Assembly: GCF_910592395.1 (NCBI RefSeq)
Contig: NC_088321.1
Location: 7,008,001-7,072,000 of the forward strand
Direction of reading: 5' to 3'
Source of the DNA: Lineus longissimus
Taxonomy: Eukaryota; Nemertea; Pilidiophora; Heteronemertea; Lineidae
Length of the DNA: 64,000 nt
Shown: piece after piece, positions 19,514 through 59,610 of the stretch
Layout of the letters: every line of letters begins with the position of its first letter
Position numbering within the stretch: position 1 is the stretch's first letter
Program-made: the position numbers and the translations under genes
The notes under the pieces: model-generated
Databases searched by the model: none
What the model was told of the DNA's origin: nothing
What the model saw: the letters and a program-made list of their open reading frames with translations, nothing else

Positions 19514-22416
19514 GTTAGTACTATCTTTGTTAAAGCCATGATTTGATAGAGAAATGTATAAAGAACAAGACTATCTAACGCCTTTTTGAAAACTATTCCC
19601 CATATTTTCATATTTGGTGTGTTTTGACGAGATGTATTTTGAAAAATTCAAAGCACTCGCTAATCGCTGGTTTCAATTTTTTCACGGCCAAATTCAAGCA
19701 TTCTGGAAACATAGTCTGCTAGATATATGAATAAGTATTCAACACAGCAAGGATTCTGAGTTATATATCGCTAGGATGACTTTAGACAACCTCTTTAAAC
19801 AGCAGTGTTCGTTTGCGACCGGTGACATACTTCTCTGGTTACGTTTTGTATACGTTTTGAGTTTGGTCACGTGACGAAATAAACTTGCCTGATAGGTGGA
19901 AAGGCTCACAGACATGTAAACATTAGCACGTGGCTTTGTTGATGGATTTCTTTTCATGCTTTGAAGTGATTTTAGTAGTGTTTTTGAGATGGATTTCTTA
20001 ATTGATACAATAAAGACAGCATGGATTTTGAAATAATTTATTTCAGTTCTCATATACACAAAGTGATGGCCTATTATTACCAGTATTTTGGCCATTACAT
20101 TACAACGCACTTGTCCAGACCCCTAGTACTAGTAGACTTCTGGAGCCGTATTTTTTCTCCTTAATTACCTGGGTGCCGCCAAAGATTTCTTCTACTGTAT
20201 TTGGTTTAGCAATACCTCTGCTGAATTTGATGTCTGTGGTCATGGGCTAAAGTGTTATTTTGGGGGGGGGGGCGTGCACCCCAAAAGTGATATTTTGAAG
20301 ATGAAATTGTTAATAACTCCTTTCCTAGTCTAGATAGGGCAAAATGGACTACTCCAGTGGATTCAGCAGCCCATTTTACCTTAAGATAGAAATTTTCAGC
20401 CTATTTGAATGAAAATTAAAAATTTTCATTTTTTGTCATTTTTCGGCGTTTTGCTCCCGCGGTGCAAAATAGTGGCTGGGGACCATTTTTGGGTCCAATA
20501 TCTTTCTTTAGGGCCTTTTCTAGGCTGTCAAAAAAAATGGGGCTACTGTGGGGGCCAATGTCAGTTGATATATGGAAGGAAAAGCCTGTAACACACCTAG
20601 AAGTTATTCTATGGGGGGTTCTAAATGGCTCCAGAGCAAAGTTGGTCTTCGGCAGCAATGGCCGAGGCTAAGTAAATTGCGTTCTAAAAAGGTCAATAAT
20701 TTCAAAATTAGTGAAGTCACAGGCGTTTCCTTGCATTTATCCATACTAGGCAGTAGGTACGCCATGTTAAAGAAGATTCAGTGGTGTAGAAAGCTTAGTT
20801 TTTGATATATGGGGGGTCAAAAACCACTTTTTTGCTGTTTCCGAGGAGGGGGGGTACCCAAAATCCTGTAACCGGCCATATTTCAGAAACTACTTGAGAT
20901 AATCAGTTGAAATTTTCAGGGTGTTTTTATCTTGGCAAAAGAAAATATTTGATACCAAAATCATGTGTTTTTATTCAATTTGAAAATTTGCTTGCCTATA
21001 CCTAATGGGAGGTCAATTATAGCTGCGCCCAAAAAACTTGCCGCTGGCTGCATTGGGTACGGGGTGAGTTTTGATCAATCAATCATGCTTTCTGCCAGCT
21101 GTAGGCTAATACCGGAAGATGTTGGCTAGAGTAGAACACCGACCATCCGGCGAAGTAATTATAAAAACAAAAAAAGTGAAGGAACCTTTTCTGCCTGGGT
21201 GAGAAAACTTTGTAAAAATTATATACTTTCGATTGTCGGATGATCTATTTCCGGACATTGTCATTTCTCCGCTCTCGTCATAACCCCCTCCTCCTGCACG
21301 CGAGTCCAGCCCTTCTGATGACCAGACAAAAAATGCCATGAACTTCAGTGACCTGGGTGACCTTTTTTTAGCTGGTCGCAAATTGCGTTGTGTACTGGGG
21401 CACGTCATCGTGGGGGGGGGGGGTTCGGGAAGAAGTTTTGATGCAGTTCAGCCGACAAGAACTATCAGGGAAATAGAAACATACAAGTACCAGTCGTAGC
21501 GATCACATCAGATCACCATTATACTCATGTGATCCATCCGTACTGTAAACCCCTTAATTTACACAGGGTTTTTTTTTGCAGAATTTGCAAACAGCCTATA
21601 TTCGCGAAAATAAAAATCGCGAAAAAAGTTTTAGATTCGAAAAACTGATCGAAATTTCAAAATCAACAAAAAAATAAAAGTCGTGGATATTTTTTTCAGA
21701 AATGTTGGCTGATTGGAAAAATAAAAAAGCACGAACATTTGTCTGTTGACAGTGTGCTGGTTGCTGCAACTCTCTCACGCAAATGACTCACTACAACACT
21801 GAAATGCGAATAATATACTTTATTCTTTTTTTCTATTTGTGATTTACCACCACCTTCGTATTCTACTTTTTGTTATAGATATGCACCACCAACATTGTAG
21901 CATTCATTCAATATAATACCATGTTCTAAATATAATAATATGCAGCAAACGACCTATTTCGTCCAATCAAAAGCGTGTACAGAGAATCACCGTATGTGTC
22001 ATTTTGCTTCTTTGTGATATTTTCAACTGCTACTTTTTTACAATTGATTGCCGCGGCCAATATGGCATGTTTCACTTTATTTTACACCACCAGCATACAA
22101 CAATCGTTGAGGTGATATAAAGATAACTTCCTTCATTATTACTTGCGAGCAAAAATCACAAGTAGGCCTACTGATGTTCTTACATTGTTTAAGGGCTTCA
22201 TAATATACAATGTAGCTCTTTTCTGGAAGCACGGGAGGAACAGTGGATGAAGCTGCAGCCAGCTGACAGCGTCATTGCTCTGTTGCGCTCAGCAGAGTGA
22301 AAAATACATTGTCCATGTTGGCCACGGCATTCTACACTAAAGGGAGTAGACAGTATTGGGATGACAGTCTGAATAATCTCACCATTTGGGCAACCAAGAA
22401 CAGAAATTCAGGAATC
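19514..22416. other. Intergenic or intronic sequence, repeats only
   Basis: AT-rich sequence with poly-G runs near 20263 and 21411. No recognisable exon or RNA gene. Open frames at 20409-20805 and 21106-21408 have no splice context or family resemblance. Confidence 0.4.
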
Positions 22417-22418
22417 TA

Positions 22419-22789
22419 CCTTGCCTACTATAAGGGGATGTTCGGCTAAGGGACCTGATTACCAAAATTTTTTTAGGGTATTTATAGTAGGAATTAAAAG
22501 ATGAAATTTGCATGGATGGTACAAAAGACCGAACTCTAGATGATGAAAAAAGAAAATCTCGGCATATCTGTAATTAAGGATGGAAAACAATGAGGTTTCT
22601 AAAAAGTGGCAAAAAAGGTAGAAAACAGTAAGAAATTAAAAATATTAATATGAATATCTTTAGAATTCATTATAATCTGTACCCTGACAAAAAATTATTT
22701 TGATCCGAGATTGCCTTCATGCAGAAAATCGAGAAAAATCAAGAAAAAACGTCATATTGCTGGGTGTGTGTATTGCATGGAATAGCCAT
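22419..22789 (+). repeat. Left terminal inverted repeat (371 bp)
   Basis: Reverse complement of 34941-35311. It begins CCTTGCCTACTATAAGGGGA and ends at GCATGGAATAGCCAT. Differences from the partner are confined to the first ~17 bases. Confidence 0.95.
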
Positions 22790-23589
22790 TTAAAATGACC
22801 AGCACAAAAGAATAAATGAACCAGTAATAACTTTGATAACACAGTCCTGTGGCCCTGTGTCTGTTTCATTAATTGACTAGTTTGGTTGAAGATTGATTTG
22901 GCTCTGTATGCATGCATTCCATAACCTCTTGATGACCAGGCGGTTAACCCTTTTTGCTCATGTGTGTCTCCAGCGCTGGTCAGAATTTATTCACCCCAAT
23001 TTGAGTATATACTGTATGTTCAGCGAAGAAAAACTACATGCATATAGCGTTTGTGCAAGAATTGGATTGGCAAGGGTGTTTCCCATTCATATCGACTTTA
23101 TGTGCAGGCAATTGGTACTTATATTATTAACTTGTGTTTTTTTTAAACATGTCAAAATGTACATCAGTTATCAGTACTCAATATTTGGTTCTTTTTTATG
23201 TTGGTGTTCTTGCTTTTTTAGTGGTATTGTCTTATTATTGAGTATAGAATAGGCCATCTACAATGTGATTTTTATGTGTGTGACAAGATCAAAGTAATTA
23301 CATCATCAAGCCATACTCTGAACATGATGCCCAGTGGCAAAACCAAATTATATAAATCCCTCAACTTGATCATGATGTCATCACAATACCTCCCCCCACC
23401 CACCCCTTTTGTGTTGGTCATGGTTCATAAGCAATTTCTATAGTTGTTTTCCACTCTAATGACATTGGCTGTCCATGACTAAATGCCGTTTTTAGGCAGT
23501 GGGTTCATTTCTTGTTATGTAATAGTCCTTGTAATAGTGTTGGGGAATTTTACCTGTGTATTTCAGTAGTGCACAGTTGTTCTTCAAAG

Positions 23590-24072
23590 ATGCCTGAAAA
23601 CCAATGTGAACACTGTACCCATGTATTCACCCGATGGAGTCATTTGTTGACACATTCGTGTCCATTTAGAGTGAGTGCAGTGGATGCAGCTACCTTTCAA
23701 ACTCTTGAAAGACCAAGCAACGTAAATAGTGTTAAGGATGCTTTGGGAGCCAATTCAATTTGTGAGCGACTTATTATTTGTCAGGCCGGCAAACTTGCCG
23801 TACCAGGAGTGTGGCCATTTGTGTTTATACCCGGCAGAATAAATGCAACAGCTTATCTGAAGCTAAAGGAGCTAGCAGCTATCAATCCCCATCAGGAGTT
23901 GCACACAATTCTCAAAAACAATGGCACCATAACTTATAATGCATACCTGAAAATTCATGACATTTCCTCTAATACTGATTATACTATATGTCCGCCATGG
24001 ACTCTACCACCAGGAGGATGTCAATATTCGTCTAGTATTAGTGGAAATATGGTAACAATTGTGCAAAGCTCG
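23590..24072 (+). CDS. C2H2-like ORF of the 12.9-kb element, function unknown
   Basis: ATG at 23590 follows a possible acceptor (TGTATTTCAG, about 23566). 161 codons in one frame reach a strong donor TCG|GTGAGT. The N-terminus has a zinc-finger-like CEHCTHVF..LLTHSC pattern (CxxC then H, with a second His close by). The remainder, including CERLIICQAGKLAVPGVWPF and ELHTILKNNGTITYNAYLKI, is not recognised. Being on the same strand and inside the TIRs, it may be a DNA-binding or accessory protein of the element. A candidate next exon in phase 0 is 26495-26575. The frame could also continue some 120 bases past the donor to a stop at 24198. Confidence 0.6.
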
Positions 24073-26494
24073 GTGAGTATGCAGGTTTTGCGAAAACTAG
24101 GTTACTTTGCCACAGCAGTTTTACTGCATGATCTATTACAAATACTCATCCTAGTCTTCACTCCGACATTGTGTGATGTTTACTGGGTAGATACTTAAAC
24201 CCATAGCCTATAGGACCAGGTTCGCGTCATCATGGTTCTCACCACCTGGGATGATGTTGCATTGTGCCTTTTGGCGGTTTCAGTCATTTTTGACATGCTC
24301 AGCCGGATAGGTGGCGCTTTGTGAAAAATGTACTTTTGGCTTTTGGATATAGACGAAGTGATTTGCAATTTGAATGAGAAATACCATTTCTATTTCATTT
24401 GACCTACTTTACAAGGTCACAGAGGTCAAATAGCGTTAATTGGCCATTTTTAGCTCAGCTGACAAAGTCAGCGGAGCTAGTAGAATAGCTGTTCAAATGG
24501 TGTCCGTCCTGCAATCCATCCATCTAGGGACCCATCTGTGGACAAAATTGGACATTTCTGATTGGGAAGGCCTAGCCACTTCGTTGACGGTGCTAAATTA
24601 GGAGTTGCCCAAGGTGAACTCAAAAAACGAAAAATCAGCGCGATCCGACCTGTATTAAGAGAATGAGGTCATTTCGCGTGTAGATTTCTTTCCCTTTTTA
24701 CCTCGGTCCACAGAGCAAATATTGTTTTCAAATGTGGCTGAATATTTTTTAATATTTTTTCATTTTTTACTTTTAATGGAATTAATATGGTTTTCACCGC
24801 CAGTTGGCGCTGCAGGCACATTGACTGAATTTTGGCGATTTCAAATTTGGCGGTGGCTCAACTTTTTGCAAGCAGTGCCGCTGATTGGCCGATCGAAAGA
24901 AGAGATGCCACCATTTAAAAATGGCGGTAGTCGCTGCTTCAATGAAGATGAGTGAACTTTCTCATGTTCAATCGGTTGATACTCTTTTAATCAACATGAC
25001 CATGTACCTGAAATTTGTTTAGGTACTGAAAAGAGTCTATATAATTCAGATTTATCGATAGTTTTTTATAATATTGCGGAAATTTTGTGCACAAATTAGC
25101 GAAAGTTGGTGCTCGTCTCATGTCATTTTAGAGCGAGAAATTTGTTTCCGTCGATCTCTACCACTGAAAAATCGCTTGCATAGCTTCGAATTTTTGTGAA
25201 AATAAGTATCTAAACTTGGTTTCAAATAGTCTAGAGAGTTACCTTTGTGGTGATACATATGGTATGTGATAAATATTTGTGGAATTTGTGAAATTCGGTT
25301 TTCAAACGTGCCGATGATGCAAGCGATTTCGCGTGAATTTTGCAAGTCCTGATATGTCGACCGGGTGTCAAAAATCACTCGCCTAAATTCAATTCAAAGA
25401 TCAAAAATAATATCTGAACTTAGTTTCAAATAGCCTACGCAATTATCATTTCGGTGATATATAATGCATGCATGTAATAATTGATTAATCTGCCTAAAAC
25501 GCGCTATTAAAACGGCGAAAGATCGTGATAAACACTCTGGTGGCGGTCGCACTAAATAACGACCGGTAGGGCCCGGCGTCTGGCGGAGAAAAAAAGGTAG
25601 CGGCCGGAGGTTGAAACGGGATTTTTATGCACTTTTAACTGTATATATATGTTGTTTGGATGTATTTCTAACAGTTCTGTAACTTTGATGACCAAGCTTG
25701 CGCCCAAAGTTGGTGAAATTGATGCTTGTTTATTGACTGCGCTAGGGACCGGAGAATCCGCCGTCGGCCATTTTGGCTACGGTCCCTGAGTTGTTGTGGT
25801 TGGCAATTTTGCAACAAATTTCGCCATTTAGGCTACGTTTGTTTACAATTATTTTGAAAGTCACATTATGACATCGTAGTATGAATTCCACTGCAGTTTC
25901 ATTACGCAGCAATGCTCATGTTTTTGGTTTGCAATCCTGTACTGTCTGTACACTGCGCTGTGCATGGCTGTACTGTAGCTGTAAAAAAGACAAAAAACAT
26001 AGCCTAGCCCTATAGGACAGGCTTAGAGTATAACTCAACAAACAGGCCCTCATGATTCATTTGATGGACACCTTATTTGATAGTACCTCATCATTAAGTC
26101 CACTAGATCCTGTTCTGTCACATGTCGTAGACGATAGACAATTTTCAAAATGTAGTACACCACTCGCTCATCTTTAAGCCCAGCTCTCGGCTCACATCAT
26201 GTGGGCACGGTTGGCTGTTGAGTGTTATGGTTCAGTCTGTGAGACTAATTTAAAGAGGTTACACTTTTATTTTGAATTGGAAAACAGCCCACAGGACTGA
26301 CTTTTCACTGAGTAATAAGTGTGCCCTTCGAAGGTAAAGTCTCTTTCTGGATTTGCTTCCATAGATGCCTTGTTCAGGATATCATCTGACCGATGCCTGA
26401 TCAAGCACAGACTGTATCCGGTGGTGTACATTTCCCCGTCTATGTCACCCTTTTTTATTCAGTCAGTGTTAATTTCTCTTCTCTTTTTTTACAG

Positions 26495-26575
26495 ATTAAC
26501 TGTTGTTGGTTATTGCAAGAGGAGTCGTTGGCACATTTCAAGTCCAGGAAAGCACTTGCTGTTCCCACATTCAGA
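26495..26575 (+). CDS. Candidate small exon in the 12.9-kb element
   Basis: The acceptor is CTTTTTTTACAG and the donor is AGA|GTGAGG. It has exactly 27 codons in phase 0 (INCCWLLQEESLAHFKSRKA..), compatible with the donor at 24072. Nothing else supports it. Alternative reading: intergenic sequence with chance signals. Confidence 0.3.
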
Positions 26576-27207
26576 GTGAGGTGTGCTTACTCGTTTTACT
26601 GCTTTCCATTCCCGGAGAGCGTTATCAAATATCTGCTGCAAGGCAACAAATATGCCGCAAGGCGCTTCAAATATCTGCCGAAAGGCATCAAATATCTGCC
26701 GCACCAATAAAGTTCATTTTGTTAACCAACTCTTTATCTTCTTTTCTTCACATACAAAAAAGACCGTCCCAAACATTTGGCTGCATCCACTTCATCAATG
26801 TCCAGACAACAGTCGGTTCATTTGACCATTGTAAAGCACCAGGCCCCACCTCACAAAATACACTGTAATAATTATGTACCTTGTGTCCATGTGCATGTTA
26901 TTAGTTCCACCTACGCTGCATGAAGACAAGGACTCCACTCTTTGACGTCACCACACAACTCCTTGACGTCATCACACACCCCACTACTGCAACGGCAATA
27001 GAAATGACTTTACGTCATAATACCAGGGTGACGTCAACTCAGTACTTCAGCATGCACTGATATAGCAAGAAGGTCTTTCGCATCAGCACTTCTGCGTGCT
27101 AGACGTTATAGCTTCACGTTGCCTCATAATAACGTTACCGACACACACTTGGCCCTTGCCGTCACCTATCCATTTCAGCTGAGCGCCAGGCCCTTGGGCC
27201 TCTTGTT

Positions 27208-27360
27208 ACTAAAAATCTGCCCTGTGACATTTGAACCTTTCACTGCGTTTGGAAATAAGGTCGATTTCTTGGCCAATTTCTTGTATTGAAGGAGGGTAAA
27301 CATCTGATTTTGGCGGGAATGCAAGGGAAAGAGCAAATGTCCCAGGGCAGATTTTTAGTA
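27208..27360. mobile_element. Small MITE nested in the 12.9-kb element
   Basis: The left end TACTAAAAATCTGCCCTGTG is mirrored at the right by CCCAGGGCAGATTTTTAGTA (about 27-bp arms, one mismatch), spanning roughly 153 bp. The ends lie in a T-TA / TA-A context. No coding capacity. Confidence 0.7.
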
Positions 27361-27642
27361 AATTCAGCACTGTCTACCATGAACAGAAAGAGAAATCACT
27401 AATCCTTCACACGTCCCCCCAATAATGATTGGAAATATTTACCCCTAGAGTTGTTGAATATGACAACCCTGTCTATAGCATTTCCATTACTATGAGACCA
27501 AGGGTTGTCATATTTGACAGCACTGTTGAATATTCACTTTTGCCGAACTGATATTGTTTGAAGACAATAACTCATTATACAATTATTTAGCCAAAAATAA
27601 TTATCCTGGATGTATTAACCTTTTATTTACCCACCCTGTAGT

Positions 27643-28026
27643 ATGCTTCTTTCTATTTTAAACAAGATACAGCCACACTCACAACCCGGACATCTTGGAG
27701 CATCACAGCATAGCCAGGATATTTCAGCTGAGGATAGTACAAGTTCACATGGAGACTCAAGCGATGAGGAATACGGTTATCTGGATTTTTCAGATGAAGA
27801 AGATGATATTCAGGGGTGTTCTGAATCGAATGTTCAGAGCAGTGCAGGACAAAATGGACAGAGTGGATATACATATAAACAAACTGATAGTCATTATGAT
27901 GAAGTGTATGAGAGGCATCAGTGGCCAAAAGAAAGACGGGAAAGTAAAAACTGTTTCCGTCATCCATGGATGTTGCAGGAAGGCCAACTTCAGAACTGTT
28001 CAGGACTAAGGGTCAGAGATTTCTAG
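27643..28026 (+). pseudogene. N-terminal part of the transposase-USP gene, closed by an in-frame TAG
   Basis: The acceptor-like CACCCTGTAG ends at 27641 and an ATG follows at 27643. The 127 codons are Ser- and acid-rich (HGDSSDEEYGYLDFSDEEDD), then pass into CSGLRVRDF before TAG at 28024-28026. The frame is the same as that of the long ORF that follows (447 bases between the two starts). The residues on both sides of the TAG look like one HTH-preceding region of a DDE_Tnp_4-type transposase. The simplest reading is a single nonsense change; readthrough, polymorphism or a sequencing error are alternatives. A tiny intron is unlikely because no donor of sensible length fits. Confidence 0.6.
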
Positions 28027-30927
28027 AATCTTGTATGGCTACAGAGAGATACCGTTCACAGAGACTCGGGATTAGATATTTCTGCACGTGTGTTGCTGTA
28101 TAGGTATAGAATGAGGTCAAACGTTGACTTCATTGACATTTCGGCCACCTTCCAAGTCGCTGCATCAACTGCGCACGACATCTTCTGGTCACAATTGACC
28201 TATCATCTTTTCCAAAATAGTCATATACCAAATCTCTTCTGGTCTCCATCAACCACAACAACCGAAAAAGATAAGTTTTTTCAAAGTGTTCAACAAGCAG
28301 AGTCGCCATACCACAGGGAGTTGCTATCGTATATGGATGACCCAACAGGACGACACCGTAGCCCAGTAGGAATTTCCCTTGATTCCAAGAAGGTGCGGGT
28401 GCCAAATTCCATGGATTACGATAATCAGAAAGCTTCTTATTACCCAAAGAAGGGTGGTCATTGTGTCACATTTACCTCATTAGTCAGCACAACAGGGCAT
28501 GTTTTGTTGACAACGCCAATAGCTGCAGCAGCAACTCCAAGATGTGGTGACAGCCAATTGGCAGGCCTCGAAATTGCCCGTGAGTCACACCAGAATACAG
28601 GGGATCATGGGATGACGTCCCTCTTGAAAGGCACAGATCGTTACTTTGTTGTCCTTGCTGTAGATAAAGGGTACATCTTCGTTCCTCATAATGTCAACCT
28701 GAACAACATTCAGAACTTCCAAGAGTGGTGTAAGACAAATGGATGCTTTGTAATATGGCCCAGTGATGGAGATGAACAAATCCTGCAAGTACGAAATAAT
28801 AACATTCAATTCGTGGACTGTCCTGGGGATCCCATTCTGACAAAGAATAGTCGAGCCATTGTTGGAAAGCTGCGTGCAGGTGTTGAGCAATTTCATGGGG
28901 CCATGAGGCAGGAGAAGATCTTTACCACAGTGCCATATCAGTTTCTGCTACCCCTTGGAGAATCATTTTGCCAGAAGTATCACATTCCCTTGGTTTATGC
29001 GAACAGCCCTCGCTTGTCTTTAATATGGCTAGCCAGTGTGAACGTGTACAACCAATTCCATAGGAAATTCAGCTTGAAATTCGTCAGCAACCAGGAACAG
29101 ATACGACTAGCGCAATTGGTGAAACTTCGGCTGAATCAAACAAGTTTCTTGCACGATCTTGACATTCAGTGGCCAGTAAATATCACTGACATTCCGAGGT
29201 CAAATGCTGCTTCCAGCGGCTGGAGTACGATAACAATGAGTGGAACTGGGACTCTCAGAAATCAGCTGAATCTCCCCACAGTCGATGCGCAGGAACGGGA
29301 TAGCTTTTATGAATTGCCATTGGGTCCATTCCTGTTCAAAAGAGCTCTGTCCTATATCACACACCTGCGGCAGCTGGAGCTAGACATCCCTCCGATTCTT
29401 GACAGTTTTGAAGACATCAGTGACCTCTGGGATGCAATGCGCGAGCCTCCTTCTACAACTGTTGTTTACTACAGAACACTGGCAAATGAACCCCAGGGAT
29501 GGGATGAACAGCGCTATTTCCAATGGCCAGTCTCTGGTGGAATTAAAATCATTACAGCAAAGATGCCATCAGCAAATCGATCAAACCGTAACACTACAAA
29601 TCTCAAACGCCCACTGTTGGTCTTCGCTGATGTTCCAAACAATTACCTGGGTTTCACAGGACCTCTAATGAAACTTGTGGGCTGGAATTGCAGCTCGGCA
29701 GCTGGAAGCGATCTAGGATCACGCATCCTTGTATCTGACGCCCATGTACTAGCCTTACTGATCATAATATGTGGAAATCTACCACACAGGCCAGTGATCA
29801 GACTATGTCACATGAGTGATCCGAAGTTGCCTCTCTCACTACAGCCAAGTTATGCTGGGCCACAGATTTGTAGACAAGTGAGCGTAAATTCTGCAAATAG
29901 TCAACATCAGTCCACAGTGCAACTTGGGGCGAGCACTTCAGTAGCAGACAGTCGATCTTGCAGTGCACAGACCCAATCACCACCAATCACAACCAGGATA
30001 CCAACAGTGTCACCTGGTACTTCCTCAGCCAGTCGATCTTGCAGTGCACAGACCCAATCACCACCAATCACAACCAGGATACCAACAGTGTCACCTGGTA
30101 CTTCCTCAGCTGCATCTACTTCTGGATTTCTTGGCCTAACAAATGACGGTAACATATGCTACAGCATTGCTGTTAGTCAATGTTTAAAGCATGTGGGCTT
30201 ACATGACAACATTCGAGGAACAAGTGCACTTGATAATATTTTTATGAACACCTGCCAGAGAATTGGGGGTGAGGAGTTCTCGCTCATTCCTCTAATCCGT
30301 GCAGTCAATGCAACAATGCAAGGAGCAGGATTCAGAATCCCACTGTATAATGACGCCGGAGAATTTCTAATGGAACTTCTGCAGAAACTGCACATAAACG
30401 AGGGTTTCCTCACCTCTTGGCCTGCAGAACTGGTGTGTCCTTCCGGGCATGTGTCACAGAAAATGGTCGGTGCCGATAATTTCAGCATCCGACTTAATGT
30501 TCCACAAGGAAATCGTGCTTCGCTGCAACATATGTATGAACATTATTTTGAAGAGGCAGCACCAGTTCCACTGATATGTGAGACACCAGTTAGAAATAGA
30601 TTATGCGCTCAAAGTGGCATCGGATTACAAGTATGCAGGCAAGGACAGGTGTCAATTATAGAACTAAACAGACGCCTCGATCTGTTATCCAACACAAAGT
30701 GTACTACTAGTATCTCTGCTCCAACTTCAGAAGTTTTCACTAACCAAACAGCAATGGCAGTGCTATGCCATTCAGGAAAGTCCTGTGACATCGGTCACTG
30801 GTTATGTTTCCTAAAAGACACGAGACAGGATTGGTGGAAGCTAGATGATAGCCAGCGGCCAGTTAAAGTTTCACCCTGGGAGACCCAGGGCAATCTACTT
30901 ACAATAAATGCGATATTCTTTCGCTAG
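28027..30927 (+). CDS. DDE transposase-like protein fused to a ubiquitin-specific protease domain
   Basis: The frame is open from 28027 to TAG at 30925. No ATG is required at 28090, where the first start is GTG. Numbering from 28090: residues ~1-45 are a helix-turn-helix (LLYRYRMRSN..FQVAASTAHDIFW). A DDE_Tnp_4-like core has D98 (ISLDSKK), D192 (AVDKGY) and E266 (RAGVEQFHG). A middle part (~400-580; GPFLFKRALSYI, GWNCSSAAGS, DAHVLALLI) resembles the SWIM-like tail of some invertebrate transposases, with its cysteines mostly lost (inference). A Ser/Thr/Pro linker carries a 27-residue direct duplication. The C-terminal USP domain has its Cys box (GLTNDGNICYS, C690) and His box (GHWLCFLKD, H903; then WWKLDDSQ, D919/D920), so the catalytic residues look intact. 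The domain order was read by eye. Confidence 0.82.
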   Translation, partial: NLVWLQRDTVHRDSGLDISARVLLYRYRMRSNVDFIDISATFQVAASTAHDIFWSQLTYHLFQNSHIPNLFWSPSTTTTEKDKFFQSVQQAESPYHRELLSYMDDPTGRHRSPVGISLDSKKVRVPNSMDYDNQKASYYPKKGGHCVTFTSLVSTTGHVLLTTPIAAAATPRCGDSQLAGLEIARESHQNTGDHGMTSLLKGTDRYFVVLAVDKGYIFVPHNVNLNNIQNFQEWCKTNGCFVIWPSDGDEQILQVRNNNIQFVDCPGDPILTKNSRAIVGKLRAGVEQFHGAMRQEKIFTTVPYQFLLPLGESFCQKYHIPLVYANSPRLSLIWLASVNVYNQFHRKFSLKFVSNQEQIRLAQLVKLRLNQTSFLHDLDIQWPVNITDIPRSNAASSGWSTITMSGTGTLRNQLNLPTVDAQERDSFYELPLGPFLFKRALSYITHLRQLELDIPPILDSFEDISDLWDAMREPPSTTVVYYRTLANEPQGWDEQRYFQWPVSGGIKIITAKMPSANRSNRNTTNLKRPLLVFADVPNNYLGFTGPLMKLVGWNCSSAAGSDLGSRILVSDAHVLALLIIICGNLPHRPVIRLCHMSDPKLPLSLQPSYAGPQICRQVSVNSANSQHQSTVQLGASTSVADSRSCSAQTQSPPITTRIPTVSPGTSSASRSCSAQTQSPPITTRIPTVSPGTSSAASTSGFLGLTNDGNICYSIAVSQCLKHVGLHDNIRGTSALDNIFMNTCQRIGGEEFSLIPLIRAVNATMQGAGFRIPLYNDAGEFLMELLQKLHINEGFLTSWPAELVCPSGHVSQKMVGADNFSIRLNVPQGNRASLQHMYEHYFEEAAPVPLICETPVRNRLCAQSGIGLQVCRQGQVSIIELNRRLDLLSNTKCTTSISAPTSEVFTNQTAMAVLCHSGKSCDIGHWLCFLKDTRQDWWKLDDSQRPVKVSPWETQGNLLTINAIFFR

Positions 30928-31544
30928 AATAGGCAGCATTAGAACCAAGCTTAAATTTGTACATACTTTGAAATGTTTCAAACAATTTAGCCTAGAACAA
31001 CTCTGGTCTCAGGACAATAGGCTAACATTTTGTAAATACGTAAATGCTCAGAGATGAAGTGACTTCCCCGTGAAGAGAAACAGTTAAAGCATGGATGTCA
31101 TGAAATGGCAAACGCCGGTATCAACCAGTTGACGAGATTACCCGAGAAGGGAAAGAGTTGAAGGACAATCGTAATATGTATTGTTCACCTGTGTCATGAA
31201 CGAGTTAGTCGTGAAATGGCGATTGCTGGTATCAACAAGTTGACGAGATTACCGGAGAAGAAAAAGAGTTGAAGGACAATCGTAATATGTATTGTTCACT
31301 TGAGTCATCGAGCGGCCAGCGGGAAAGAGTTTGTCGTGAAATGGCAATTGCTGGTATCATCCAGTTGACGAGATTACCCGAGAAGAGAAAGAGTTGAAGA
31401 GAGACATTTGAAGGACAGTACTAATATTGTTCACTTGGTCATTGAGCTTATCAAATGGGGGAGCAGATGACGAGGTGAAGTGACTTGGCTAAGGATAGAA
31501 ACAGCTGTGTTGTGTTGCCAACACAGTTAGAACATGCTACTAGA

Positions 31545-32120
31545 TAATATGTGTTACCCTCCCAACAACTAGTTGGAATATCAAATGGATAATGCTCTGT
31601 TACCTTTACAACGACTAGTTGGAATATTGAATGGATAATCCTCTGTTACCTTGACAACAGCTAGTTGGAATATAGAATGGATAATCCTCTGTTACCTTGA
31701 CAACAACCAGTTGGAATATTGAATGGATAATCCTCTTTTAGCTTGACAACAACTAGTTGAAATATCAAATGGATAATGCTCTGTTGCCTGGACAACAACT
31801 AGTTTGAATATGGAATGGATAATGCACTGTTACCTTGACAATGACTAGTTGGAATATCAAATGGATAATGCTCTGTTGCCTTGAAAACAACTAGTTGGAA
31901 TATCGAATGGATAATCCTCTGTTACCTTCCCAACAAATAGTTAGAATACGGAATGTATAATGCTCTGTTACCTTGACAACGCACCTAGTTGGGATATATC
32001 AAATGGATAATACTCTGTTACCTTGACAACAACCTTTGGGAATATCAAATAGATAATGTTCTGTGTTAGCTTTAGAACAAACCTGAGGAATATTTAAATG
32101 GATAATACTCTGTGTTAGTG
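31545..32120. repeat. 46-bp minisatellite (about 12 units)
   Basis: ACTAGTTGGAATATCRAATG and GATAATGCTCTGTTACCTTG recur with a 46-bp period (31571, 31617, 31663, 31709, 31755, 31801...). Units drift toward the 3' end. Confidence 0.9.
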
Positions 32121-33499
32121 GGTAGTTCAACGATTTCGTTCCCCAGGATAGGAGCTACACTCATGAAAACTGAGGTAAGGTGTATTTAAGTAATTCTATA
32201 GCACTGTGTTTTAGATTGTATGGAAATGATGCACAAACTGTATTCAATCCACCACCAAATTAACTATCAGAAATGAATCTGAGTGCGTGGTAAGAAGTTG
32301 AGCTTACGGACCATCTCAAAAGTATTTTGAAGCCAAAATGACTATTAAGTTACTTAGTGTTTGGTCTGACCCCCTCCCTCCCTCAAACACTATTTAAAAA
32401 ACATAATATCAACCATGTCAACCAACTATCCATGGGTCATACAAGGTGAATCGCTATTAAAAAACTTACTTTTTCTTTCGTGAATAAAGACTACGGTATG
32501 TATCTGTGAAACTAATGTCTTCCCTTGGGGTCCAAGCCTGATTTTTCCCAACATCGTTTGGATGAAGCCAAAGATAAATGCCCATGTAGTCTACTCTTAT
32601 ACAGCCATTGCTCAGATTCAATACCACTACCTGTTGCACACAGTTTATGAATTCGTCGCCAGTGTTTGGAAGATTTGGGTTGTGTTTCTTTTATGATTTT
32701 CAAGTTCAAAACAAGTGAAGCCAAAAGTAATAAAAAATACTAAGTGGCGATGTCAAACATTAAAAACACCATCCCCTGACTAACTGACTTAAGTCTTTTT
32801 AGTTTCAAAATACTTTTCAAATGGTCCCTGATGGGGGGGGGGGGGGGATAAGCACTGGTATTGGCTGCAATCTTTACAACAGCAAATGTTCCCACTGTGA
32901 CTTTATCAATGAACATGAATGCTTCTGTAGATTTCAAGAAAATATTGCATATTAAAAGGCAAGTAATAATTCCGAAATGATTGTTAGGTTTACATATTGT
33001 ATCCGCAGACTTTAATAATTTATTTTGAATTCTGGCATTTTTTTACAATCTCATGACAGATGAGTTCATGGGTACATAGTACATGAACTAGCTATGTACT
33101 ATTTACATGCATCTGCATGTATGGCTTTCTGTATTGAAATACTGTAATTATGACACAATGTAAATCCCGGTAGTAAATCTTTACAATTGTATATCTAGAT
33201 CCAATACAAAATGCACTTCAAATTAATGTCCCTCTAAATATGAGGCCCCACACGGGCAACCAGGAAATTATGAATGCGAAAATTTATGAATGCGAAACTG
33301 GCCTTTGAAGTCTGCGGATAGAGTATTTCCTGATTTTATTGTGATCGCAGTCTGCATGGTTCTGAAGACCCAACTGGCCGGGTTTACATAGAGCTACACG
33401 GTTTACGGACAAGCCACTGAACAATGACTTCACATGACCATCACCATGAATCCACTGTTCACCAGCATGTCTGTAATACTGTGTTGCTGTATGTACGTA

Positions 33500-33650
33500 C
33501 ACCCGGCCCCGTATACCGTGTCCCCGAATGTAAACCAAGCCCTGTATACCATGTCGCTGAATGTAAACCCGGCCCTGTATACTGTGTTGCATGTAAGCCC
33601 CATGTTGATGTATGTAAATCCGGCCCTGTATACCATGTCGCTGTATGTAT
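33500..33650. repeat. 33-bp repeat (four to five units)
   Basis: CCGGCCCTGTATACCATGTC recurs at 33-bp spacing (33511, 33544, 33577), with a longer 51-bp last step. Being a multiple of three, it keeps frames open on both strands. Confidence 0.8.
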
Positions 33651-34940
33651 GCGGGATGAAAACCCAGCCTTAAGAACACATTTAATTGAAGTGTTCAACT
33701 GTTGCATTGGATATTATTCATCAGGCCTAACAGAATAAGATATGATCCACCATGTGCATGTCGCACAGAAGATGAGCGTCAAGGACACTTGGAGATGGAA
33801 GAAATTGATGTATGGTAGGCCTACTCAGATTTCACAGAAGTCTGCCTCAACCTGGGTCGTTTACTTCTTTTTGGAGGGGGGGTCGGGTAACCGGAAACAG
33901 CATTTATTCTGTTAGGTCTTAGAACAGTTGAGGACAGACCTCATCCTTAAACACAGTCTTCTACCTAAAAAATCATGCCTAATGCCTGCCACACACGGTA
34001 CATTTTCATCGTATAGGAATTGGATAGGAAAAACTGGCAACGTGTCTGTCAGGAAACATTGTTCAATTTTTATCGTAAAGGAAAAAAAACTCCACAAATA
34101 GGTTCTGTCCTATTCATTTCGTTCAAAAAATGCTATGCGAAATAATTAATTTGACCGTTTAAGCTGGGGCTACATTTTTATGTCAAATTGACCTTTCGGG
34201 CCGGCGATCATCGACTACAATGCTTTATAGGTACCCGGTATCTGGTTTGTAAAGGGTTAACAATACTAAAAAAAATTATGACCCCACCATACACGATACA
34301 TTACTTGATTGTTCAAAATATTTCCTAAAAAAATATTGATATATATTTTACATCCAACCGATTCTCATGGAAAATCATAGGAAATATTTTAAAGGAAAAT
34401 AGTATATCGTGTATGGCGGTCACAGGGTTAAATACGATTTCAACTTCTTTATAAGCTTTAAGAAATATTTCCACAGCGGCCAAGGCCATCATATTTATGA
34501 CCCCTTGTATATGGGACAAAAAAAGGCATTCTTTTAACACAAAAACATACTCATGGTTAGAATGGGTTTAAAATGCCCAATTATTCATTGTTGGGGCAAA
34601 GAAAGGTGAGATTAACATGTTATATTATAGTATGTTATTTCATTACAAAGAAGATAAAGATTGGGAGCAGGATCAAAATATCACCATTTATTAAGGAATT
34701 TCTCTGTACTTCAATTACAAATTACATGTAGATCGTAAAAATCAAATGATTTTAACAAATGTCTAATATTATTATCTTGCTGGGACAGAATGGGTTAACT
34801 TCTTCCAGTTGGTAAAGTTGACAGTCACTTAACAATTGAACTACTCAATTACAGCATTTATAAAGCTTATTGAAATAGATTCATGTCTGGCAAATAATGC
34901 CTCACGGTGTTGTGGTTTTCTATTGTTAGTTAAGTTCAAT

Positions 34941-35311
34941 ATGGCTATTCCATGCAATACACACACCCAGCAATATGACGTTTTTTCTTGATTTTTCTCG
35001 ATTTTCTGCATGAAGGCAATCTCGGATCAAAATAATTTTTTGTCAGGGTACAGATTATAATGAATTCTAAAGATATTCATATTAATATTTTTAATTTCTT
35101 ACTGTTTTCTACCTTTTTTGCCACTTTTTAGAAACCTCATTGTTTTCCATCCTTAATTACAGATATGCCGAGATTTTCTTTTTTCATCATCTAGAGTTCG
35201 GTCTTTTGTACCATCCATGCAAATTTCATCTTTTAATTCCTACTATAAATACCCTAAAAAAATTTTGGTAATCAGGTCCCTTAGCCGAACATCCCCTTTA
35301 AGTGGGCAAGG
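34941..35311 (-). repeat. Right terminal inverted repeat (371 bp)
   Basis: It pairs with 22419-22789 and ends TTTAAGTGGGCAAGG before TA. Immediately inside and outside these limits the two sides stop matching. Confidence 0.95.
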
Positions 35312-35313
35312 TA

Positions 35314-36611
35314 GCCGACTGGTTATATAACATTGATATACCACAGGGGCACGCTTTATATGTGGGAAATCAGTAAAGCTAGCAGGAATAAGCATGAAAG
35401 CAAAGATATAACATTTAACTCGCGTGTCCCGAAGGCATTAGAAAAATATTTCTATATTCTTGTTTGAATTCAGGGGCCGATTTTAGATCACTGTTGACTT
35501 ATGATGTGTACCCCTGTGTGATAAATGTTAGCCTTTTTGTTCGAGGTGACATACAAGCAAAACAGAAAGGGTCAGAAATGTCGTTTTCCGGATTTTATCC
35601 TGTAAATCGGCGACAAATTTATCATATACCCCATGTGCACTGATCCGGCAGACAAAACATAGAAACAAATGATGTTCTACGGCCTGCGGTCTGGAGCTTT
35701 CATGCTGATCCGGCGACTCGGACCGGTCTCTCTGTGGGTTTTCTTATTTTACCAACCTGAGGATGAATACATTCTTTGTTTAAGCCAGTACGGCTGTGTT
35801 GTACAGCTATAACATGCTAGAATTGATTAATCATGAGTCATTTTGTTTTGGATCAAGATGTTTCGTTATGCACCATGTATTTTGTTTTGTTTTCACAAAT
35901 TTTCAGGAAAATGGCTGATATTGTAACCGAAAAGTCGTTTTACTTGTTTGTCTCCTCCAATCAACTTTATCACTTATGAAATAATATATGAGCTGATTCG
36001 GACTGCATTTGCGGTTCTTTATACGTCTTTTCTATTAATTTTGTCTTTGAGTTTGAACATGGACAAATGTGCCAATTGACCAAACAATTGGCTTTGACTC
36101 TCGCGTGATCGGGTGTGGACTGAAATAATCAGCTAATTATGATCAATTTAGCTTGTTTCGGCGCTTTTCAAACTACATGATTGTATATGATTGACAACCG
36201 AGCTAATCAACAATTGACACTGAATATACCTTCGAGCAGGACTTATGTCACCTAAAATCTAGGTTATCTGTTTATTTAGCAACTCTCAGTTCATGCAAGA
36301 AAACAGATTACAAATACGCATGCACCAAATATTGTTGTTACCCTCTAACACGTCGTTCTACGTTTGGTTTGCCTCCTCCCCCCCCAAAAAAATAGCTGGA
36401 AGCCAAGTGGCGAATCCAGTGCTCTAGATCCAGGTCTTCCCCAACCCCAACCGTTGGGTGCCGTGCTAAAATGGATTCATCATCCATGAATGCTCAAAAT
36501 AAAGGTTTAATTGAACATGCATAATGTGGTCAAATGATTTTTTTTTTTCATTTTCCATTTTGAAAAACCACGACGAGATTGATGCAATAGGAGACAAGGG
36601 AGACAAGTTAT
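35314..36611. other. Intergenic sequence without recognised feature
   Basis: AT-rich DNA to the right of the 12.9-kb element. No exon, RNA gene or clear repeat. Confidence 0.4.
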
Positions 36612-38299: not shown

Positions 38300-39235
38300 T
38301 GTCCATTATAAGGCCAAGCATACCCAGGCAAAATTATCTGTGAAAAATCTATATAGAATCTATGAAAAATCTATAGTGGATATGGCAAACAAGCATACCC
38401 AGGCAAAATTATCTGAAACATCTATATAGAATCCATTAGAAATCTATATAGAATCTATAAAAAATCCATAGTGGATATGGCAAACAAGCATACCCAGGCC
38501 AAATTAACTGTGAAAAATCTATATAGAATCTATGAAAAATCTATAGTGGATATGGCAAACAAGCATACCCAGGCCAAATTAACTATGAAAAATCTATATA
38601 GAATCTATGAAAAAGCTATAGTGGATATGGCAAACAAGCATACCCAGGCAAAATTATCTGTGAAAAATCTATATAGAATCTATGAAAAAGCTATAGTGGA
38701 TATGGCAAACAAGCATATCCAGGCAAAATTATCTGTGAAAAATCTATATAGAATCTATGAAAAAGCTATAGTGGATATGGCAAACAAGCATACCCAGGCA
38801 AAATTATCTGAAACATCTATATAGAATCCATTAGAAATCTATATAGAATCTATAAAAAATCCATAGTGGATATGGCAAACAAGCATACCCAGGCCAAATT
38901 ATCTGTGAAAAATCTATATAGAATCTATGAAAAAGCTATAGTGGATATGGCAAACAAGCATATCCAGGAAAAATTATCTGTGAAAAATCTATATAGAATC
39001 TATGAAAAAGCTATAGTGGATATGGCAAACAAGCATATCCAGGCAAAATTATCTGTGAAAAATCTATATAGAATCTATGAAAAAGCTATAGTGGATATGG
39101 TAAACAAGCATATCCAGGCAAAATTATCTGTGAAAAATCTATATAGAATCTATGAAAAAGCTATAATGGATATGGCAAACAAGCATACCCAGGCAAAATT
39201 TTCGGTGAAATCTATATAGAATCTATGAAAAATCT
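38300..39235 (+). repeat. 75-bp minisatellite (about 12 units)
   Basis: The unit is GTGGATATGGCAAACAAGCA, CCAGGCAAAATTATCTGTG and AATCTATATAGAATCTATG. The period is 75 bp (25 codons), so it translates as repeats of MANKHTQAKLSVKNLYRIYE. A deleted variant (ATCTGAAACATCTATATAG) at 38413 and 38808 introduces stops, so translation is probably incidental. AGAATCTATATAG-type sequence makes it rich in short palindromes. Confidence 0.9.
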
Positions 39236-39829
39236 ATATAGGACATTTTTGCTATATAGATTCGCATGTTGGCCAGTATGCATCGACATGATTTTGTTAC
39301 CCAATACAGAGCTTATAAATGAGTCTTATACAATGCAATAACAAGAATACATTAATTAGCACAAATAAGCTTCCATCAAATTTGCAAACTTCTGCGAATA
39401 TCTTCGCGTTACTAAAAATATAGCTCGATCATGAACAGGGCCAGTTTATAGGGCCAGCAGAAGCACATAAAGCCGTGTAGTATTTCGGCTTCCAACAGAG
39501 CCGCATCCGCACTGATTTCCCCCCAGTAAATACAATGTACTATCAAAAATGGCCTTGAAAATATACCAACAAGATGCGAACCTTGTATGCTATACTCCTT
39601 TTGTGACTATAGTATCCAGTCCGTGAATTGTAATGCATACAATCATCAAACACTTTTAATCATGTGCGAACATTTGAGTATCATCTCGCATTTTCAAAGG
39701 CTAACTTAATAATTTGCCGAGCTGCATGGTTTGTCAATGCTTATGCTTTACCTTAGAGAAAAATAAACACTTTAAAAATAAGATTTTTTCTGGCCACAAT
39801 GGGTCATCTGCCCTCTATGATCATGTCCT

Positions 39830-41640: not shown

Positions 41641-41914
41641 TGCATATTTTAGAATTTAACAAACTCCGTAAAATAAAAATTACAGATTATCTCGCATATA
41701 TTTTTTGATATAGATTTGATAATCGACATTTTCGCCTGTGTAAAATGTCATTGAACGGGCATATACGTCCTCTGCATGTGTCTATTTTGTCTACTTTCTC
41801 ACAATAGACAGTCCTATGGTGACTTGGGGACTTTCCTCTTCTTGGAGTCAACATCAGAAGAATCACTACTTGACCTACGACGTTTTGGGCGTTGCATGTA
41901 GTCTGAAGATGTAC

Positions 41915-41977
41915 CTGCAGTTTCCAAGTCAGCTGAAGAAGAATAATAATTTGAATAATTACTTCCATGGTTAAGAG
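41915..41977 (-). CDS. Tandem cassette exon 1 (possible terminal exon)
   Basis: 63 nt with split phases (two bases first, one last), encoding LNHGSNYSNYYSSSADLETA. If the donor is ignored, the frame runs on through GTSSDYMQRPKRRRSSSDSS and a nuclear-localisation-like KKRKVPKSP to TAG near 41819. This copy may therefore be the original last exon of a minus-strand gene. Product not recognised. Confidence 0.55.
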
Positions 41978-42522
41978 CTGAAATGAAAATGATATCGTTT
42001 TAAGTTGAACACCTTTTTAATGTATATTTGCCGTGGCCAAAATGGCGTGTATATCACTTTATTTCAAACAAAACATCATTAAGCAAGTGTTGATGATAGC
42101 TGGCTTTCTTAATTATCATTTGCAAGGAAAGAATGCATGAACCTTCGTTCACCTGGTTGCAAATCTCTGCATAATTTCGTCCGCACATGCAACAAAAGCA
42201 AATGAATAAGCGATCAATGTGCATATTTTAGTATAGTCTTATAGTATAGCAGTCTTTAAAACTCAGTAAAATAAAAAAAATACAGATTATCTCGCATGTA
42301 ATTGTTTCATAAATATTTGATAATCGACACTTTCGCCTGTGTATAATGTCGTTGAACGGGCATATAATTATGTCATCTAGTGTCCATTTCGTCTACTTTC
42401 TCACAAAAGACAGTCCTGTGGTGACTCAGAGACTTTTTCCTCATTTTGGCAACAACATCAGAAGTATCACTTCTTGACCTACGCCGTTTTAGGAGTTGCA
42501 TATACATTGTAGTAAGATATAC

Positions 42523-42585
42523 CTGCAGTTTCCAAGTCATCCGATGAAGAAGAATCATCTGAATTATAACTTCCATGGTAAAGAT
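42523..42585 (-). CDS. Tandem cassette exon 2
   Basis: 63 nt, acceptor TATTTCAG, donor GTATAT, encoding LYHGSYNSDDSSSSDDLETA. Read-through past the donor soon hits a stop because of a small indel relative to copy 1. Confidence 0.5.
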
Positions 42586-43139
42586 CTGAAATAAAAAATA
42601 CTACCGATTTAAGTTGAATAACTTTTTTAATGAAGATTTGCCGTGATTGCCGTGGCCCAAATGGCGTGTATCACTTTATTTCAAACAAAACATCATAAAG
42701 CAAGTGTTGATGATAGCTGGCTTTCTAAATTATCATTTGCAAGGAATGATTGCATGTACCTTCGTTCACCTGGTTGCAAATCTCTGCATAATTTCGTCCG
42801 CCCATGCAACAATATCAAATGAATAAGCGATCAATGTGCTTATTTTAGTAGAGCCTTGTAGTATAGCAGTCTTCAAAACTCAGTAAAAAAAAGAAAAAAA
42901 AGAAGATTGTCTCGTACATGTATATAATTGTTTCATAAAGATTTGATAATCGAAAATTTCGCCTGTGTATAATGTCGTTGAACGGGCATATAATTATGTC
43001 ATCTAGTGTCCATTTCGTCTAGTTTTTCACAATAGACAGACCTATGGAGACTCGGAGAATTTCCTCATTTTGGTAACAACATCAGAAGTATCACTTCTTG
43101 ACCTACGCCGTTTTAGGTGTTGCATTGAGTAAGATGTAC

Positions 43140-43202
43140 CTGCAGTTTCCAAGTCACCCAAAGAAGAAAAAGGATCTAGATAACGACTTCCATCACCAAG
43201 AA
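43140..43202 (-). CDS. Tandem cassette exon 3
   Basis: 63 nt, acceptor ACTTCAG, donor GTACAT, encoding LGDGSRYLDPFSSLGDLETA. Read-through continues MQHLKRRRSRSDTSDVVTK and ends at a TAG in the same relative place as copy 1. Confidence 0.5.
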
Positions 43203-43738
43203 CTGAAGTGAAAATGCTATCGTTTTAAGTTGAACAACTTTTTTAATGAATATTTGCCGTAATCAAAATGGCGTGTATTACTTTATTTCCAACAAAACAT
43301 CATAAAGCAACTATTGATGACAGCTGGCTTTCTTAATTATCATTTGCAAGGAATGATTGCATGTACCTTCGTTCACCTGGTTGCAAATCTCTACATAATT
43401 TCATCCGCACATGCAACAATATCAAATGAATAAGCGATCAATGTGCATATTTTAGTAGAGCCTTATAGTATAGCAGTCTTCAAAACTCAGTAAAATAAAA
43501 TAAAAAAGATTATCTCGCATATAATTGTTTCATATAGATTTGATAATCGACAATTTCGCCTGTGTATAATGTCGTTGAACGGGCATATAATTATGTCATC
43601 TAGTGTCCATTTCGTCTACTTTCTCACAATAGACAGTCCTGTGGTGACTCAGAGACTTTTTCCTCATTTTGGTAACAACATCAGAAGTATCACTTCTTGA
43701 CCTACGCCGTTTTAGGTGTTGCATTGAGTAAGATGTAC

Positions 43739-43801
43739 CTGCAGTTTCGAAGTCACCCAAAGAAGAAAAAGGATCTAGATAACGACTTGCATCACCAAGA
43801 A
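43739..43801 (-). CDS. Tandem cassette exon 4
   Basis: 63 nt, acceptor ATTTCAG, donor GTACAT, encoding LGDASRYLDPFSSLGDFETA. It differs from copy 3 by two bases, both changing an amino acid. Confidence 0.5.
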
Positions 43802-44337
43802 CTGAAATGAAAATGCTATCGTTTTAAGTTAAACAACTTTTTTAATGTATATTTGCCGTGATCAAAATGGCGTGTATCACTTTATTTCAAACAAAACATC
43901 ATAAAGCAAGTGTTGATGATAGCTGGCTTTCTTAATTATCATTTGCAAGGAATGATTGCATGTACCTTCGTTTAACTGGTTGCAAATCTCTGCATGATTT
44001 TGTCCGCACATGCAAAAATAGCAAATGAACAAGCGATCAATGTGCATATTTTAGTATAGTCTGATAGTGTAGCAGTCTTCAAAACTCAGTAAAATAAAAA
44101 CATACAGATTATCTCGCATGTAATTGTTTTATATAGATTTGATAATCGACAATTTCGCCTGTGTATAATGTCGATGAACGGGCATATAATTATGTCCTCT
44201 AGTGTCCATTTCGTCTACTTTCTCACAAAAGACAGTCCTATGGAAAATCAGAGACTTTTTCCTCATTTTGGTAACAACATCAGAAGTATCACTTTTTGAC
44301 CTACACCGTTTTAGGTGTTGCATTGAGTAAGATGTAC

Positions 44338-44400
44338 CTGCAGTTTCCAAGCCATCGAAAGAAGAAACAGGATGTAAATAACGACTTCCACCGCCAACAA
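44338..44400 (-). CDS. Tandem cassette exon 5
   Basis: 63 nt, acceptor ATTTCAG, donor GTACAT, encoding LGGGSRYLHPVSSFDGLETA. It is the most upstream copy on the minus strand. Flanking exons of the gene were not recognised at higher coordinates. Confidence 0.5.
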
Positions 44401-44595
44401 CTGAAATGAAAATGCTATCGTTTTAAGTTGAACAACTTTTTTAATGTAGATTTGCCGTGATCAAAATGGCGTGTATCACTTAATTTCAAACAAAACATCA
44501 TAAAGCAAGTGTTGATAATAGCTGGCTTTCTTAATTATCATTTACAAGGAACGATTGCATTTACCTACGTTCACCTGGTTGCAAATCTCAAATAG

Positions 44596-51307: not shown

Positions 51308-51359
51308 AACCCCCAACCCCTGTAAATGGCGTTAATTAAGCATTATTTCAGAGGACTGC

Positions 51360-51539
51360 TGTATTGTATTTAGCATCTACCGCAACTGTATGGGTTTTAG
51401 TGCCTAGTTTCATGAGAAGTAATAAGAGAGAAGTACCACGAGTTTCGTCTTCGGTTTTATTCTGTGGAATCCGTCCTAAAAACCACCCCGCATATCAGGG
51501 ATACGAGGCCCGGGGTATAATCCCCGCTCTGATAATGCA
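51360..51539 (+). repeat. 5' LTR (180 bp)
   Basis: Starts TGTATTGTATTTAGC and ends CTCTGATAATGCA. Preceded by the target duplication ACTGC. Matches 59426-59605 throughout by eye. Confidence 0.95.
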
Positions 51540-51541
51540 TC

Positions 51542-51560
51542 TGGCGACCCCGGCAGGACC
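51542..51560 (+). promoter_or_regulatory. tRNA primer-binding site
   Basis: TGGCGACCCCGGCAGGACC starts two bases after the 5' LTR; the leading TGG pairs with a tRNA 3' CCA. The tRNA species was not resolved. Confidence 0.8.
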
Positions 51561-51767
51561 GAGCTTGTTGTACATAACGAAAATGACGTTTAATCGATAG
51601 AAAATCCGTTTGAAATAATGGGATTACGCGGCTGCCGCGCTCTGTACAGTGTACATGCATGCATGTTCCATGCATGTTCTAACCATAACGTCACGTATGT
51701 GTAGCATGCAAAGAAAAGACCAAGCAGAACTGAATTTGATTGTGGTGTTTATTTTTCTCGCTACTAA

Positions 51768-59425: not shown

Positions 59426-59605
59426 TGTATTGTATTTAGCATCTACCGCAACTGTATGGGTTTTAGTGCCTAGTTTCATGAGAAGTAATAAGAGAGAAGT
59501 ACCACGAGTTTCGTCTTCGGTTTTATTCTGTGGAATCCGTCCTAAAAACCACCCCGCATATCAGGGATACGAGGCCCGGGGTATAATCCCCGCTCTGATA
59601 ATGCA
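59426..59605 (+). repeat. 3' LTR (180 bp)
   Basis: Same sequence as the 5' LTR, TGTATTG..ATAATGCA, followed by ACTGC. Confidence 0.95.
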
Positions 59606-59610
59606 ACTGC

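Follow-up and report, generated by a model that had tools for sequence, protein, structure and literature searches.

Several unrelated mobile elements bear enzymes that remove ubiquitin or SUMO (PMC2836005, PMC9741609). Ginger1 elements, as portrayed in part of the first of these sources, encode a DDE transposase with a C-terminal cysteine protease of the ubiquitin/SUMO type (OTU or Ulp1), and Bao and colleagues suggested there that repair factors are what these enzymes act on while the element transposes (PMC2836005). Helitrons and Helentrons likewise carry deubiquitinase domains (VTD or OTU) on their main protein; activity has been reported for the VTD domain, and a section of the same paper proposes that it shields transposition proteins from the proteasome (PMC9741609). 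The nearest precedent for a fusion with a protease of the kind discussed here, by description only, is the Trichomonas vaginalis protein XP_001314237.1, given in an excerpt as transposase_11 plus Peptidase C19 (PMC2836005). Transposons of the PHIS type, for their part, are described in the relevant passage as having terminal inverted repeats (TIRs) and as duplicating 0-4 bp of target (PMC10045372).

Here, we describe an element from the nemertean Lineus longissimus in which a transposase-like core and a ubiquitin-specific protease (USP) domain are joined in one gene. The element occupies positions 22419-35311 (12,893 bp) of a 64,000-nt stretch of assembly GCF_910592395.1 (NC_088321.1, positions 7,008,001 to 7,072,000, forward strand), hereafter the window, in whose coordinates all positions are given. 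It has precise long TIRs, a TA on both sides within a CTAG context, and a gene that joins the transposase-like core to the USP domain, and on this basis we regard it as probably a cut-and-paste transposon of the IS5-like/PHIS (DDE_Tnp_4) type with a transposase-USP gene, the mechanism proposed below included. An IS5-related DDE element has reportedly been found in an animal before, as the IS5-like transposon of a bdelloid rotifer of Gladyshev and Arkhipova in 2009. With transposase and protease in one chain and near-identical ends, the present element offers a compact test object for why mobile elements bear deubiquitinases, and so rare a fusion may shed light on the ways in which mobile DNA takes advantage of the host cell.

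An earlier note on this DNA had proposed a transposon with nearly identical 371-bp inverted ends in a TA-CCTTGCC .. GGCAAGG-TA context (hyphens mark borders), with the few differences clustered at the very tips, and our reading of arms and flanks bore out all of these points. The left TIR (22419..22789, +) begins with the tip CCTTGCC and the right TIR lies at 34941..35311 on the - strand, each 371 bp when counted from that tip. With the shared CTA/TAG counted in, each arm spans 374 nt (22416-22789 and 34941-35314); the two are 99% complementary and stand 12,151 nt apart. They differ at three positions (11, 15 and 16 of the 374, numbered from the outer C of CTACC), all within the outermost 13 bp of the TIR, and the inner 358 bases are identical between left and right (358/358). 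Over 100 bp on the inner side of the arms identity falls to chance level (31/100), and it does so too over 100 bp on the outer side (30/100), so both borders of the element are sharp. The flanks read GGAATC-TA at the left and TA-GCCGAC at the right of the element, with the presumed target duplications at 22417..22418 (context C-TA) and 35312..35313 (context TA-G); the unoccupied site would therefore likely have read CTAG, with TA duplicated on insertion, as judged from this one locus. The CTAG context is mildly informative, because 163 of the 4283 TA dinucleotides in the window sit in it.

The repeat itself is distinctive within the window, where a 22-bp arm piece has two exact matches, one per arm, against none expected (100 shuffles, up to 3 mismatches), while the 10-bp tip alone is uninformative (3 matches against 2.61 expected, with 1 mismatch allowed). 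That the window holds a single arm pair whose 358 inner bases are identical would also suit arms that are no transposon ends at all and arose by inverted duplication or as an artefact of assembly. We find that explanation scarcely credible, given the three differences at the tips, the same CCTTGCC within TA at both ends, the sharp borders on both sides and the transposase-like gene between the arms. In PIF/Harbinger elements, published TIRs range from 5 to 1042 bp with about 93% under 60 bp, making 371 bp rare and yet within range (PMC4482050).

Among about 5.8 billion predicted proteins, a search with 6396 candidates gave two relatives of the transposase encoded between the arms, P0001 and P0002, and an alignment-based protein search, in which the 7989 best-sharing candidates were scored, returned the same two. 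The collection combines genomes and metagenomes, and the scarcity of relatives in it, which depends on how well animals are covered, says little. No relative of the transposase was detected in viral contigs, prokaryote genomes, phages or plasmids at the sensitivity of those searches (peptide patterns for viral contigs and genomes), PADLOC returned no match, and NCBIfam gave one chance match, to P0002 (E 0.11). Both relatives are 54-55% identical to the window protein over residues 1-560. P0001 has the same transposase-USP fusion at about 50% identity (116/187 in the DDE part, 19/48 in the linker and 124/261 in the USP part), and since one of the two relatives found has the fusion too, it is not an assembly join in the window. 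P0002 stops near the start of the linker and has no UCH match in Pfam, whether by contig end, gene model or true absence of the USP domain.

The element contains one clear gene, on the + strand at about 27643-30924. Most of it is a 966-codon open reading frame (ORF) (28027..30924, +; stop 30925-30927) that encodes a putative helix-turn-helix, a DDE-like region, a linker and the USP domain. Upstream of this lies the 5' part of the gene (27643..28023, +), an acidic stretch followed by a conserved block, in frame with tblastn matches to P0001 and P0002; a spliced start farther upstream is possible. The two parts are separated by an in-frame TAG (28024..28026, +) at a place where neither relative has a stop. 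In the gene frame tblastn aligns P0001 from 27895 to 30924 and P0002 from 27700 to 29715, in both cases through the TAG, and the gene of this copy therefore has one interruption in a frame that is open everywhere else: the 1102 codons that begin at 27619 and run to the terminating codon at 30925 contain this single internal stop. The linker contains an 81-bp in-frame tandem duplication (29945..30106, +) whose two copies differ at 1 position.

Ahead of its linker the product has the marks of a transposase. A match to HTH_Tnp_4 covers residues 16-53 (28072..28185, +; Pfam E 0.0011, below cutoff), and the same family is found below cutoff in P0002 (E 0.0024) and is not listed for P0001 in the Pfam scan. 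The DDE-like catalytic region (28381..28887, +) contains the candidate residues D119, D213 (in DKGY) and E287, which are invariant in all three proteins, as is D175. DDE_Tnp_4 is matched in P0001 at E 0.015 (15.4 bits, below the cutoff of 24.8) and, again sub-threshold, at residues 118-161 in a window piece spanning 28294-28956 (E 0.29); both matches are partial, spanning profile positions 1-44 of 158. Pfam did not list DDE_Tnp_4 for P0002, for the full window ORF or for a longer piece of it (28294-29286). Along the window protein HTH_Tnp_4 (16-53) is matched ahead of DDE_Tnp_4 (118-161, from the separate piece), and a helix-turn-helix ahead of the DDE core is the order in Harbinger-type transposases. 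Sequence searches against solved structures matched the USP part alone and no transposase structure. Two AlphaFold2 models were poor (mean pLDDT 30.2 and 41.4). When the second was submitted to Foldseek, 226 matches came back at E<=10 and none at E<=0.001, and we do not count this result as evidence. With its sub-threshold HTH_Tnp_4 and DDE_Tnp_4 matches and its invariant D/D/E residues, the gene product is a transposase-like protein.

A TA at both ends is also what a member of another TA-target superfamily would leave, for example Tc1/mariner, whose target is TA. Neither the transposase ORF nor its relatives have a family of that type in their Pfam listings, where the sub-threshold matches are to HTH_Tnp_4 and DDE_Tnp_4, and this makes a Tc1/mariner-like origin very improbable indeed. 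The nearest family is instead PHIS/IS5-like, in which membership is probable and, because the DDE_Tnp_4 match is sub-threshold and partial, not shown. The DDE_Tnp_4-type assignment with long TIRs that had been suggested earlier thus stands as far as domain order, D/D/E residues, TIRs and target context go, and is held back by that same match. As judged from this one locus, the 371-bp TIRs with TA on each side agree with the TIRs and 0-4 bp target duplication of PHIS-type elements.

The C terminus is a USP (peptidase C19, Pfam UCH) domain on sequence grounds. It spans residues 703-943 (30133..30855, +) and scores 31.8 bits against a Pfam UCH cutoff of 23.9, and P0001 also scores above the cutoff, at 46.9 bits. 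N706, C711, H924 and D940, which we take to be the active-site residues from the USP pattern, are present in the window ORF with the same residues in P0001, and C711, H924 and D940 follow the expected USP order of Cys, His and Asp. The closest solved relatives of the USP part are USP36 and USP14 (sequence matches in the PDB), mainly through the His box. Conserved active-site residues in both window and P0001, and a single copy so far at one locus, are what one would also see if the gene were a domesticated host gene, a transposase-derived deubiquitinase that chanced to sit between later inverted repeats. TIRs with only 3 differences in 374 flank the gene in a TA/CTAG context, however, and the in-frame stop argues against a host function; we hold domestication to be highly improbable.

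The remaining roughly 9 kb of the element are repeat-rich and mostly without recognised genes, apart from one likely coding ORF (23479..24195, +). This ORF is stop-free for 239 codons with its first ATG at 23590, and Pfam matches it weakly to a C2H2 finger (zf-C2H2; E 0.042, short of the cutoff). None of 300 simulated sequences of the non-gene part contained an ORF as long (largest 199). Under a model trained on the transposase, its codon usage exceeds the 99th percentile of the non-coding controls; under one trained on the neighbouring Gypsy element, it stays below the 95th. The piece 23596-24195, which begins two codons past the first ATG, yielded no homologue, and PHROGs gave weak matches only (E 0.039 and 0.47). 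The ORF may encode an accessory DNA-binding protein or be an upstream exon. Of 88 stop-free frames of at least 50 aa overlapping 22400-35320, a scale at which shorter exons could be missed, 8 were scanned with Pfam; 6 of these 8 had no match, the other two being the transposase ORF and 23479-24195 with its weak C2H2 finger. Rfam gave no match in the window. The earlier note had the element enclosing genes on one strand and carrying extra genes. One convincing + strand gene and one weaker + strand ORF bear out the strand, and they do not make up a set of genes; the idea of extra genes was mostly mistaken, since the extra function lies in the USP domain fused to the transposase, with the one likely coding ORF besides. 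Neither this USP domain nor the in-frame stop figured in that note.

Tandem repeats within the element include units of 46, 111 and 33 bp, with the 111-bp units at 31097-31308 and 46-bp units at 31552-32064 (together 31097..32064). Two short inverted-repeat elements lie inside the transposon, at 32308-32827 and 27206-27361, with ends of 36 and 44 nt; these are possibly nested MITEs. Elsewhere in the window we observed a 110-bp unit in two arrays (2419-4815 and 5910-6531, about 95% alike and ~1.1 kb apart), a 64-bp unit repeated 22 times at 8473-9881 (97% match), a 75-bp array at 38315-39241 whose long stop-free frames encode a repeated peptide, and a long tandem repeat at 41661-44589 with a unit of ~600 bp (87-89% alike). 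A Gypsy-type LTR retrotransposon lies at 51350-59609; its 194-bp repeats, at 51350 and 59416, are 97% alike, and it has gag/pol-like ORFs at 53022-58257; between its left repeat and gag is a GDSL-hydrolase-like ORF (51768-52370; PF00657, 25.9 bits, cutoff 23.6).

The in-frame TAG, together with some 9 kb in which repeats abound and no genes are recognised for the most part, raises the question of a non-autonomous or dead relic, a real TIR element that carries the fused gene as a decaying passenger while the true transposase is encoded elsewhere. A decaying passenger is hard to square with a frame that has one stop in 1102 codons from 27619 to its final stop, with the transposase signatures, and with two relatives that are 54-55% identical over residues 1-560 and keep D/D/E, and we consider the relic unlikely.

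The arms bear on the age of the insertion. With 0 differences in 358 bases, the upper 95% limit on inner-arm divergence is about 0.8% (rule of three), which would put the insertion below about 1.5 million years at an assumed 3e-9 per site per year, unless gene conversion homogenised the arms. Arm identity thus suggests that this copy moved recently. The earlier description of the family as recently active fits the 358 identical inner TIR bases and sits less easily with the in-frame stop in the copy's transposase gene; both the stop and the nested repeats may predate the insertion, in an ancestor copy, or postdate it.

All three TIR differences fall within the left-tip 10-mer CCTACTATAA (22424..22433, +), whose exact reverse complement, TTATAGTAGG, lies in the same arm at 22482..22491 (+). 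The right tip pairs with this inner motif at 7/10 bases (hand count). A single short template switch within the arm (quasi-palindrome correction) would account for all three differences and would answer why they cluster at the tips. An exact match of at least 10 across all three differences arose in 0.2% of 5000 simulated arm bodies with first-order base make-up kept; the simulation was designed after the match between CCTACTATAA and TTATAGTAGG had been noticed, and the template switch is for that reason a lead, not proof.

In the mechanism that we propose, the helix-turn-helix would bind the TIRs, the D/D/E site would excise the element and insert it at C-TA-G, and the C-terminal USP would strip ubiquitin either from its own transposase chain or from proteins of repair and silencing at the break. 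The outcome would be a longer-lived transposase, or repair steered in the element's favour. Because of the in-frame stop, this copy would depend for its movement on protein made by another one, barring readthrough. Since protease and transposase share a chain, we favour the transposase complex itself as the site of the effect. More tentatively, and as a proposal that we would rate a little short of probable, the element may represent a distinct eukaryotic IS5/PHIS-like lineage with a built-in, catalytically active USP, selected since deubiquitination is part of transposition. A transposase-USP element would also mark a source of new deubiquitinases for host genomes.

Helitrons and Helentrons differ from this design and are not known to have TIRs. 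As outlined in part of the VTD paper, they are rolling-circle Rep/helicase elements with an unrelated class of deubiquitinase (PMC9741609). PIF/Harbinger, ISL2EU, Spy, Pangu and Nuwa (PHIS) have a helix-turn-helix and a DDE core, for which the window protein gives sub-threshold matches (HTH_Tnp_4 and DDE_Tnp_4), and share with the element a short A/T-centred target, but in the cited sections they average about 3.5-4.8 kb with mostly short TIRs, compared with 12.9 kb and 371-bp TIRs here (PMC4482050). Their second ORF is described there as Myb/SANT in Harbinger and YqaJ in ISL2EU, whereas here a USP is fused to the transposase, and the word 'ubiquitin' occurs 0 times in the main text of that paper (PMC4482050). 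NuwaII, in the same excerpts, prefers C-TNA-G, close to the C-TA-G seen here (PMC4482050); at this one locus the shared duplication is TA and not TNA. For ISL2EU, the flanks at this locus, C-TA and TA-G around the element, differ from AT in A-AT-T, and Pfam gave no YqaJ match for the 8 frames, out of 88, that it was run on. KolobokP, as partly described, has long terminal direct repeats and a small His-Me finger nuclease; the long end repeats here are inverted, with no direct repeat family at the ends, and the same 8 of 88 frames gave no nuclease match.

Ginger1 is a parallel in protein architecture, and its TIRs span 44-270 bp in the published table (PMC2836005). It differs in its Gypsy-integrase core, its CCGG/CCGT-type target duplications and its protease family, according to the passages cited (PMC2836005). 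Pfam found neither rve nor H2C2 in the window transposase ORF, in a scan that detects both in the neighbouring Gypsy, and the C-terminal domain here is UCH/USP, not OTU or Ulp1. Judged on target, core and protease, then, the element belongs to none of ISL2EU, NuwaII and Ginger1. The Trichomonas protein XP_001314237.1 belongs to another transposase Pfam family (PF01609), and the part of the source that mentions it describes no element (PMC2836005). Among the matches listed in openly licensed PubMed Central text, none describes a PHIS-type transposase that carries a fused USP. Fusions of a transposase with an enzyme of the deubiquitinase type are already in print (Ginger1, Trichomonas), and a USP with a PHIS-like transposase is a variant of these. 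If the lineage proposed above is real, a DDE transposase would have the ubiquitin system as its direct partner, in convergence with the OTU/Ulp1 proteases of Ginger1 and the VTD domain of Helitrons.
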